A program made the translations under genes and the position numbers. The notes beneath the pieces were generated by a model. The model was not told the origin of the DNA. It searched no databases and worked only from the letters and a program-made list of their open reading frames with translations. A DNA stretch of 64,000 nucleotides from Blastococcus sp. URHD0036 (GTDB taxonomy: Bacteria > Actinomycetota > Actinomycetes > Mycobacteriales > Geodermatophilaceae), in NCBI RefSeq assembly GCF_000701365.1, contig NZ_JNIK01000016.1, positions 248,001 to 312,000 of the forward strand, read 5' to 3'. Below are positions 55,592-58,523 of the stretch, one piece after another; position 1 is the first letter of the stretch; every line of letters starts with the position of its first letter.

Positions 55592-58308
55592 GCCGGCTCC
55601 GGTCCACTCCCGCGTTCGGCCTCCTGCTCGTGCTGCTCGGTGCCGTCTGCGCCGGCGCCGAGCTCTCCGGGTCGGCGCTGGACTCCTGGGTGGTCCCCGC
55701 GTGCCTGGCGGCGGGATCGCTCGCCTGCGCCGCGTACGTCACCCACCTCACCGCCCGTCTCCCCAGCCGCTCCCGACGGCCCTGGCGCGCACTGGCCCTG
55801 TCCGGCGTCCTGCTGGCCAGCGGCCAGCTGATCGCCGGCGTCCGGGGGGTCACCGCCGACCGCGGCACCGGCGGCCTCGAGGACCTGGCGATGCTGTCGG
55901 CGGCCCCGGTCGCCATCGCCGGCGCCGTCTGGCTGATGCCCACCCGGGCCGGCCGCCGGATCGGCTCCCGCGCGCTGCTCGACGGGCTCATCGTGACCGC
56001 CTCCGTCGCGGTCCTCGGGCACATCGTGCTCGGGGACCTCCTGCCCGCCGGTGGTGGCGCGGCCGACGAGCTGCTCGCCACGGCCTACCCGCTGGTCGCC
56101 GTCGCGTTGTGCGGCGTCGGCCTGGTCCCGGTGACCGCGGTCGCCGAGGTCCGCCGGTCCGCGGCCACCTGGCTGCTGGTCACCTTCCTCGGCATGGCGG
56201 TCGTCGCCGTCAGCGGTGCCGTGGGGCGCGACACCGGCGCGGCCCTCCCGCTCCTGCTGGCCGACCTCGCCTGGCTCGGCACGCTGGCCACGGCCGCCCG
56301 CGGCGCGGCCGTCGACCCGGGCGAGCCGGCCGGCCAGCCGGTGCACCGCACGCTCCCGCTGCGTGGCGGGCTGGCGGCGCTGGCCGCCGCCGCGCTGCTG
56401 CTCGCCGTCCTGACCGGTGGCGCCGCCCTCGGGCGGTCGCTGACCCCCGCCCAGGCCGCCGGTGGCCTCCTCGTCGTCGGCCTCATGTCCGTGCGCACTC
56501 TGCTGTGGGCCCTGGACGCCCACCGCCTCACCCGGCGGCTGCAGCGGGCCGAGGGGCGCTTCCGCGCCCTCGTGCACAGCGGGGACGCCGTCACCGTGCT
56601 GCTGGACCCCAGTGGACGGGTCGGCTGGGTCTCCGGGCCGGTGGCCGAGCAGCTCGGCTGGGAGGACGACGACCTGGTGGGGCGGGCACTGTCGGCGCTG
56701 CTGCACCTCCAGCACCGCGCCACGCTGGCCCAGCTCGTCGCCGCCGTCCGGGCCGGTGCGCCCGTCGAGCTCCCGGTCACGGTCCGGCTGGGCAGCCGCG
56801 CGGGCCAGTGGCACGACATCGAGATCCTCGGGGCGGCGCCCGAGGGCGACGGATCGACCGGCCTCGTGCTGCACCTGCGCGACGTCAGCGAGCGCAGCGC
56901 CACCCAGCGCGAGCTGGAGCGCATGGCCTACACCGACTTCCTCACCGGGCTGCCCAACCGCGCCCGTCTCATGGCAGGCCTCGACACCGCGATCGCGCGC
57001 GCCGAGGCCGGCCGGCGGGCCTGCCTCCTGCTGCTGGACCTGGACGGCTTCAAGGCGGTCAACGACGTGGCCGGGCACGACGCCGGGGACCGGCTGCTGC
57101 GCGAGGTCGCCGGCTCGCTCACCGGCGCCGCCCGCGACGTCGACCTGGTCGCCCGCCTCGGCGGCGACGAGTTCGCCATCGTGGTCGACTCCGGCCCCGA
57201 CGAGGCGCTCGCCCTCGCCGAGCGGCTCGTCGCCCTGCTCGACCGCACCCACCGGTTCCCCACCGCGGGACCGGACTCCGGGTCGGGGACGGGACCGCCG
57301 CTGCACGTCTCCACCAGCATCGGTGTCGCCGAGATCGGCCGGCACGGGGACGCCTCGGCCACCCTGCACCAGGCCGACCTCGCGCTGCGCACCGCGAAGG
57401 CGCACGGCAAGAACGGCGTCCGCGCGTCCGGTCAGGCCATCGTCGAGGAGACCGGCCGGCGCAGCCGGCTGGCCCACGACCTGGCGCTCGCGCTGGAGCG
57501 GGGCGAGCTCACGGTGGCCTACCAGCCGGTCGTCGGCGTCGTCGAGCGGCGGGTCCTCGGCCTGGAGGCGCTCGTCCGCTGGGAGCACCCGGAACTGGGC
57601 GCGATCTCGCCGGAGGAGTTCGTCACCCTGGCCGAGCAGGACGGCCTCATCGTGCCGCTGCAGCGCTGGGTCATCCGGACCGCGACCGCCGACCACGCCC
57701 GCCTGGTGGCCGACGGACGCGACCTGCGGCTGGCGGTGAACGTCTCGGCGATGCACGTGCACGCGCGCTGCCTCGTCGAGGACGTCGCCGACGCCCTGGA
57801 GCGTTCGGGGCTGCCTGCTGACCGGCTGATGATCGAGCTGACCGAGTCGGTGTTCACCGACGACGCCGAGCTGCTGCGCAGCACGCTGGGGGAGCTGTCC
57901 GACCTCGGCTGCGTCATCTCCCTCGACGACTTCGGCAAGGGCTCGTCCTCGCTGACCCAGCTGGCCCGGCTGCCCGTCGACGTGCTGAAGATGGACCGCG
58001 GCTTCGTCACCGGCATCGACGCCGACCCGCGCCGCGCGGCCCTGGTGGCCGGCGTGGTCGACCTCGGCCGCACCCTGGGGATGGACATCGTGGCCGAGGG
58101 CGTGGAGACGCCCGCCGAGCTGGCCGCGCTCACCGCCCTCGGCTGCCGCTTCCTGCAGGGCTGGCTGGTCGGCCGGCCGGTGCCGGCCGGAACGGTCGCG
58201 GGGGTCGTCGACGGGTTCGACCCCGCGGTGCTCGACGCCGGGCCCGACCCGGCCGACGTGTCCCACGTCTCGCACGACACCGTCCACCTGGCGGGACAGC
58301 GCGGTTGA
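55588..58308 (+). CDS. Membrane PAS-GGDEF-EAL protein 2
   Basis: 906 residues, same layout as its neighbour. Helices span residues 5-300, including [20 protein letters not shown] at the start. A PAS domain is at about 325-435 ([20 protein letters not shown]). The GGDEF domain is intact, with GGDEF at 525-529 and an RDVD inhibitory site at 516-519. The EAL domain is also intact (EALVR 660-664, [31 protein letters not shown]). It could make or break c-di-GMP depending on signal. The ATG overlaps the previous stop (ATGA). Its own stop codon lies inside the -35 box of the ilvB leader promoter. Tandem duplication is likely, as both share overall plan and about the same length. Confidence 0.92.
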
Positions 58309-58334
58309 CGAGGAGGCCGGAGGGGGCGCACAGT
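58305..58334 (+). promoter_or_regulatory. Promoter of the ilvBNC leader
   Basis: TTGACG (-35, 58305-58310), an 18-bp spacer, and CACAGT (-10, 58329-58334). This is the best complete promoter in the window. Transcription should start about 7 nt later, exactly at the GTG of the leader peptide (58341). The -35 overlaps the stop codon of the GGDEF/EAL gene. Confidence 0.65.
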
Positions 58335-58340
58335 GGGTGC

Positions 58341-58376
58341 GTGCCCTCCGCCTGCCAGATCCTCGTAGTCGCCTAG
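58341..58376 (+). CDS. ilvB leader peptide
   Basis: Eleven codons, GTG to TAG, encode [11 protein letters not shown]. The four consecutive codons ATC CTC GTA GTC (Ile-Leu-Val-Val) are the amino acids made by the downstream ilvBNC products. The frame is followed immediately by a 10-bp hairpin and then a terminator with seven T. There is no ribosome site, but a promoter -10 box ends 6 nt upstream, so the mRNA would begin with the GTG. Scarcity of charged Ile, Leu or Val tRNA would stall ribosomes on these codons and so control readthrough into ilvB, as for the ilvBNC leader of Corynebacterium glutamicum. The mechanism is inferred from arrangement. Confidence 0.75.
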
Positions 58377-58400
58377 CGCGTCGGTCGCCGACCGACGCGC
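58376..58400 (+). promoter_or_regulatory. Leader hairpin 1 of the ilv attenuator
   Basis: GCGCGTCGGT pairs perfectly with ACCGACGCGC around a 5-nt loop. The left arm begins at the last base of the leader stop codon, so a ribosome finishing the peptide would cover it. It ends three bases before the terminator stem. It probably acts as a pause or alternative structure. Confidence 0.65.
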
Positions 58401-58403
58401 TGA

Positions 58404-58436
58404 CCCCTCCGTGCCCGCGGCACGAGGGGTTTTTTT
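58404..58436 (+). terminator. Attenuator terminator before ilvB
   Basis: CCCCT-(C)-CGTGCC pairs with GGCACG-AGGGG (11 pairs, one bulged C, 3-nt loop) and is followed by T7. It is the only intrinsic terminator with a T-tract in the window, and it lies upstream of, not after, a biosynthetic operon, 88 bp before ilvB. Confidence 0.8.
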
Positions 58437-58523
58437 GCGCCCCGAGCAGGGAGCGCGCCCGCCCTCCGGCCCGCACCGGGCCACCCGCAGACCGCCGTCA
58501 GGCCCCGCCAGGAGAACGCCGAC

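Follow-up and report, generated by a model that had tools for sequence, protein, structure and literature searches.

A probable leaderless, codon-dependent attenuator upstream of ilvBNC in Blastococcus sp. URHD0036 and related elements among actinomycetes

The window, a 64,000-nucleotide stretch of the genome of Blastococcus sp. URHD0036 (contig NZ_JNIK01000016.1, positions 248,001 to 312,000), carries ilvB, ilvN, and ilvC behind a short leader region. The products of these three genes were identified with NCBIfam profiles, all above the cut-off. The features of the locus, numbered from the first base of the window, are as follows.

58305-58310, plus strand: -35 box TTGACG (sequence)
58329-58334, plus strand: -10 box CACAGT, of poor consensus
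58341-58343, plus strand: GTG start codon, also the predicted transcription start (promoter spacing, conserved in the family)
58341-58376, plus strand: leader peptide ORF of 11 codons, stop codon TAG at 58374-58376 (sequence)
58359-58370, plus strand: sensor codons ATC CTC GTA GTC (Ile-Leu-Val-Val)
58375-58401, plus strand: stem 1, 12 perfect pairs (58375-58386 with 58390-58401), loop GCC, closing U.G pair 58374-58402 (folding, class-wide covariation)
58403-58436, plus strand: intrinsic terminator, hairpin 58403-58430 and T7 58430-58436 (terminator scan, folding, class-wide covariation)
58510-58514, plus strand: AGGAG, likely ribosome binding site of ilvB (by eye)
58524-60395, plus strand: ilvB, acetolactate synthase large subunit (NF005860, 1120.8 bits, cut-off 881)
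60408-60947, plus strand: ilvN, acetolactate synthase small subunit (NF008864, 229.9 bits, cut-off 119)
60983-62011, plus strand: ilvC, ketol-acid reductoisomerase (NF004017, 551.1 bits, cut-off 336)

Two overlapping GGDEF/EAL-type genes (52955-55591 and 55564-58308) lie upstream of the operon; the second scored above the GGDEF profile cut-off, and the first was assigned by eye. The stop codon of the second gene (58306-58308) falls within the -35 box. In a search of a plasmid collection, the matches listed (20 of 22 records) all fell in the ilvB coding sequence and none in the leader.

The initial annotation of this DNA had described a TTGACG/CACAGT promoter with an 18-bp spacer and a GTG at the predicted +1. 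These elements are present, with 18 nt between the two boxes and 6 nt from CACAGT to the GTG. A leader query matched 90 of 96 genomes of the family (very probably Geodermatophilaceae), and the 89 loci containing the core were compared; outside this set are G010, whose match lies outside the core, and the six unmatched genomes, all less than 90% complete, one of which (G005) was later found by a covariance model. The -35 box was TTGACG in 88 of the 89 loci and TTGACT in the other, and it stood 17 or 18 nt upstream of the -10-position hexamer, which was CACAGT in 76 loci and had A2 and T6 in 88. An in-frame GTG followed 6 nt 3′ of this hexamer in 89/89 fetched loci; judged by promoter spacing only, the predicted 5′ end falls on the leader start codon in every one of them. 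A strict sigma-70 scan did not detect the ilv promoter, which is weak by consensus. The promoter and start are credible because they are conserved in all fetched family loci.

The length of the leader from GTG to TAG took ten values among the 89 loci, from 8 to 21 codons, all in frame. Because the start is fixed to the promoter while the length changes stay within the ORF and in frame, this comparison favours the leaderless reading that had been proposed. Translation from a longer mRNA that carries a ribosome binding site, begun at an upstream start or by read-through from the preceding gene, would fit the G-rich purine stretches upstream of the GTG, but these end well over 10 nt 5′ of it. The stretch between the -35 and -10 boxes also differs among relatives, whereas the promoter-to-GTG distance is constant. 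We therefore regard translation from such a transcript as highly improbable.

The 11-codon frame led by GTG, with its Ile-Leu-Val-Val run, lies at 58341-58376 as first annotated. Among 415 short ORFs in the window (7-25 codons, ATG or GTG start, both strands), three contained a run of at least four Ile/Leu/Val codons, and only the ilv leader among these three has promoter geometry (score 11.0 versus 6.0 and 4.5). Eighty-seven of the 89 family leaders were scored (L088, truncated at the edge of its contig, was set aside, and a filter removed one other), and Ile, Leu, and Val made up 40% of their residues after the start. Each of the 87 had at least one in-frame GTA. By contrast, five genes of the window (ilvB, ilvN, ilvC, and the two upstream GGDEF/EAL-type genes) use GTA for none of their 300 Val codons. 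ATT was likewise used for 0 of 93 Ile codons in the same five genes. The locus thus has a leader ORF with codons for the product of the operon, as a ribosome-mediated transcription attenuator should. Some longer leaders (L028-L031, L033-L035, L037, and others) contain, by eye, an extra inverted repeat in the ORF 5′ of the sensor codons.

A perfect 10-bp hairpin at the leader stop codon and a T7 terminator 88 bp before ilvB had also been noted. The hairpin is where it was placed, its outer pairs falling within TAG, and it is longer, with 12 pairs; the terminator is confirmed, and its T7 ends 87 nt before the ilvB ATG at 58524. A terminator scan of 58000-58800 returned this one site, with 0.0 expected from shuffles. 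In 864 kb of the host genome, made up of the window and 40 stretches of 20 kb (L270-L309), which do not take in the cimA and leuS elements described below, one terminator-like site passed the cut-offs, and it was the ilv attenuator. In the 864 kb sampled, intrinsic terminators that end in a U-run are exceedingly scarce. As in an attenuator, an intrinsic terminator is found between the leader ORF and the first gene.

Both helices are supported by covariation across the class. In the class alignment A2 (57 rows, fitted to the covariance model and including 11 partial or off-target chance rows), 93.3% of cells were paired and both sides had changed in 21 of 23 pairs, a result equalled in 0 of 500 shuffles; slid structures, used as a control, paired in 30-51% of cells. 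Within the family alone, the RNAalifold consensus contained no compensatory pair changes, and TAGCGCG was invariant in 75/75 distinct rows. No Rfam family reached its gathering score, the two chance matches (16.5 and 16.9 bits) falling short of gathering scores of 56.4 and 112.

Under strict filters at E 0.1, covariance model R1 found the element in 203 of the 296 class genomes; laxer filters gave 19/19 near relatives. It also matched 17/17 non-family ilvB loci at order level, these being the best 17 among 88 such genomes, and the region upstream of ilvB in 61 of 80 named loci, weakly at L196 (E 0.33). Positive genera include Streptomyces, Kitasatospora, Actinomadura, Mycobacterium, Nocardia, Rhodococcus, Nocardioides, and Arthrobacter. 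The 19 named loci missed by R1 include the sole Corynebacterium locus tried (L263), L239 (a record without upstream sequence), and twelve records of Microbacteriaceae genera. L184 and L185 appear to be chance matches within coding regions, the fragmentary L186 was not counted, and L165 and L187-L189 are outside the analysis. In the 61 named loci, the best-scoring starts lay 6-9 nt 3′ of a -10-like hexamer; picking the best-scoring start, as was done for the named and class loci, favours good geometry, and the 89-locus family count is independent of this choice. In the family, the leader stops with the TAG at the foot of stem 1; in many other loci, those of Streptomyces among them, the frame reads on through GKRVG and ends at a TGA in the stem-1 loop. 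With either stop position, a ribosome at the stop codon occupies stem 1. An alignment of relatives had been suggested as a check of the initial annotation, and the Ile/Leu/Val codons, the paired hairpins, and the terminator are all conserved. With a homologous leader, stem 1, and terminator upstream of ilvB, the locus belongs to the actinobacterial ilvB leader elements, and one leaderless attenuator layout appears to serve the family and many other actinomycetes.

The effect of ribosome position was computed with a mask starting at the 5′ base of the A-site codon. With a 13-nt mask and the ribosome at GTA, at least five pairs of stem 1 (median 9 of 12) remained in 87/87 family members, and none remained in 87/87 with the ribosome at the stop codon. 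The outcome was similar with an 11-nt mask at the stop (fewer than two pairs in 86/87) and a 15-nt mask at GTA (at least five pairs in 78/87). In silico, and for stem 1 only, ribosome position decides the structure. Stem 1 therefore obeys the logic of an antiterminator, being kept when the ribosome stalls at GTA and removed when it reaches the stop. The terminator had a probability of at least 0.59 at every ribosome position in 87/87 members. Values above 0.9 were obtained in 86/87 with the ribosome at the stop versus 49/87 with the leader free or the ribosome stalled, which is a small shift in the predicted direction.

From all of this we consider it probable that the ilvBNC leader works by leaderless, codon-dependent attenuation. 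Transcription would begin at GTG 58341 or within one base of it, and ribosomes would load on the 5′-terminal codon without a Shine-Dalgarno sequence. Starting translation at the first base may keep ribosome and polymerase in step on an ORF of 36 nt. When charged Ile, Leu, and Val tRNAs are ample, the ribosome would reach TAG and mask the 5′ arm of stem 1, as the computed geometry indicates, and the abutting terminator, relieved of stem 1, would end transcription before ilvB. When charged tRNA is scarce, above all for the rare GUA, the ribosome would stall at codons 7-10, stem 1 would form ahead of it, and RNA polymerase would read through.

How stem 1 could oppose the terminator is the less conventional part. 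The initial annotation had seen no complete antiterminator, and this holds: an antiterminator exclusive with the terminator, as in the classical scheme, was not found in the window sequence or the 87 scored family members, and folding the window sequence with the terminator forbidden gave no helix over the terminator. The two hairpins abut without overlap, and the classical antiterminator was accordingly rejected for the family. A pairing of the CTCGT codons with the terminator's ACGAG, seen by eye, was left aside because a stalled ribosome would cover these codons. The textbook set of mutually exclusive 1:2, 2:3, and 3:4 hairpins has its leader, hairpin, and terminator at this locus, and partial counterparts elsewhere. 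In Mycobacterium-like relatives, the terminator's ACCC is drawn into stem 1, and the terminator probability rises from 0.0 in the free leader to 0.95 with the ribosome at the stop in Mycolicibacterium L221, and from 0.04 to 0.95 in L113. When the terminator's 3′ arm is omitted from the fold, stem 1 gains a GG-CC extension that reaches 4 nt into the terminator in 12 of the 61 named loci, every one from Streptomyces, Kitasatospora, or Streptantibioticus; because unmasked leader codons confounded this overlap measure, only these 12 rows were used. An exclusive antiterminator is found only in the Mycobacterium-like and a few other relatives, and the 87 family members and the window sequence have neither the overlap nor an alternative helix, which makes the textbook scheme very unlikely here.

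The junction between stem 1 and the terminator is short. It measured 1-3 nt in 75/75 rows of A1 and in the 48 readable of the 57 A2 rows, and 0-2 nt in the 49 readable of the 64 A3 rows, A2 and A3 being biased toward short junctions by their fit to a model built from short-junction members. The loops of stem 1 ranged from 2 to 65 nt in the same alignments. Minimum-energy folds gave a gap of 0-2 nt in 86/88 family elements, 38/40 class elements, 9/10 elements before cimA, and the element before leuS. A statistical claim for the flush spacing was dropped for want of a usable control: in the first control, 14 of 18 other terminators were flush, nearly all of them ilvB elements that had escaped the filter, and the second, the 864 kb, held no other terminator above the cut-offs.

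On this modelled geometry, stem 1 might act as an antiterminator by its position, with its base 0-3 nt from the base of the terminator and competing with it for the bases at their junction or for space in the RNA exit channel; we put this step forward as a tentative proposal. Stem 1 could instead be a pause or synchronisation hairpin that holds the polymerase just past the terminator's 5′ arm until the ribosome melts the stem at the stop codon, with read-through set by timing or by ribosome-polymerase contact. Stem 1 closes ca. 11-14 nt behind the point where the polymerase has copied the terminator's 5′ arm, the two hairpins are compatible folds, and the accessible text on C. glutamicum proposes a pausing role for a hairpin apex (PMC11857589). 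However, pausing offers no clear reason why the terminator should fail under starvation, and we consider it somewhat unlikely.

Further elements of this kind were found before other genes. The host genome carries one before cimA (L173, G000:C15:315987-316063), ca. 4 kb beyond the end of the window (it would be window 67987-68063), with the leader MSRTGTIAIR followed by a stop codon and CimA identified by TIGR00977 (614.7 bits, cut-off 450). Among 18 cimA loci compared, in which CimA was identified by profile for four loci and by motif for the others, at least two Ile codons occurred in 17 leaders (one in L175) and GTA in none; the leader of L180 was taken from a reading of the sequence, the automated terminator call being wrong there. 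The leaderless start is less certain at cimA because, by eye, most of these starts lack a TTGAC box and the start lies 6-8 nt 3′ of the -10. No report of an attenuator before cimA was found in the literature searched (partial texts, with screening at title level). If it operates as proposed, the cimA element would attenuate the citramalate route specifically in response to isoleucine.

A second sister element in the host genome lies before leuS (L183, G000:C19:137643-137720, minus strand), with the leader MTGRFLLTGPR followed by a stop codon, a hairpin, and a terminator. The best profile for the following gene was leucine--tRNA ligase at 476.1 bits, short of the 548.4 cut-off, as the profile was run on no more than a fragment. 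LeuL2 before leuS of S. lividans is already on record in the available part of an earlier report (PMC8079986). In one class relative (L161), an element before leuA has an LLLI leader, MKHLLLIESARH followed by a stop codon. The codons of the sister leaders follow the gene, Ile before cimA and Leu before leuA and leuS, and this change of codon identity with the downstream gene is our best evidence that the codons matter. It also bears on whether the terminator is constitutive and partial, with a peptide that is translated and non-regulatory. Codon substitutions before ilvB of S. coelicolor that had no regulatory effect, cited second-hand in the consulted portion of PMC1262725, would agree with such a terminator and speak against simple codon-dependent attenuation. 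Since codon identity tracks the downstream gene and GTA is kept in 87/87 scored family leaders, we judge it improbable. Returning to codon-dependent attenuation, a wider reading is conceivable, although we hold it with less than even confidence: in much of the actinomycete class, the ilvB attenuator would do without a mutually exclusive antiterminator, a ribosome-controlled flush hairpin would stop the terminator from closing in the RNA exit channel, and this leaderless module would have been copied to cimA (Ile) and to leuA and leuS (Leu), each copy sensing its own pathway.

The ilv leader described here belongs to a known type, since leaderless ilv leaders have already been published for C. 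glutamicum (PMC11857589) and S. lividans (PMC8079986), as far as the accessible parts of these papers go; the leaderless start, first annotated as unusual, is therefore not so. What is less expected is the missing antiterminator and the Ile-codon sister elements before cimA. Like the locus in Blastococcus, ilvBNC of C. glutamicum (ilvB-II motif) has a leader rich in branched-chain amino acid codons, a conserved GUA, and a terminator before the operon (available text of PMC11857589 and PMC10272879). Its transcription starts one nucleotide from the leader start codon, replacement of Val by Ala in this homologous leader abolishes valine control, and a change of the start codon cuts expression by 80% (PMC11857589, in the same portion); these published results favour the codon-dependent reading. 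In the C. glutamicum scheme, as given there, a GCC at the boundary belongs to both antiterminator and terminator, and the first hairpin lies over the start region, whereas here stem 1 follows the sensor codons and abuts the terminator. In addition, unlike the family loci, the sole Corynebacterium locus tried (L263) gave no match to R1.

S. lividans ilvL resembles the present leader in being a leaderless ilv leader, MRTRILVLGKRVG, with a terminator before ilvB (accessible text of PMC8079986), and Streptomyces loci match R1 as family loci do; it differs in that its frame extends to a TGA in the loop of stem 1 in place of TAG at the base. For ilvB1NC of M. tuberculosis, the part of PMC13236596 at hand describes a uORF with LVVI codons and GUA, which is the regulatory codon of that model, a terminator, and a ribosome that masks the antiterminator when at the stop codon. 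That scheme, compared here by its description, draws an exclusive antiterminator, and none was found at the present locus. Seliverstov et al. (2005) likewise described short ORFs rich in Ile, Leu, and Val codons and terminators before ilvB in Corynebacterium, Mycobacterium, and Streptomyces, and called the mode of regulation of actinobacterial ilvB unclear; the available portion of that paper names neither leaderless starts nor the present family (PMC1262725). This old puzzle of a peptide and a terminator with an unclear mode of switching can now be put as a testable question, namely, whether a hairpin flush with a terminator is enough to antiterminate.
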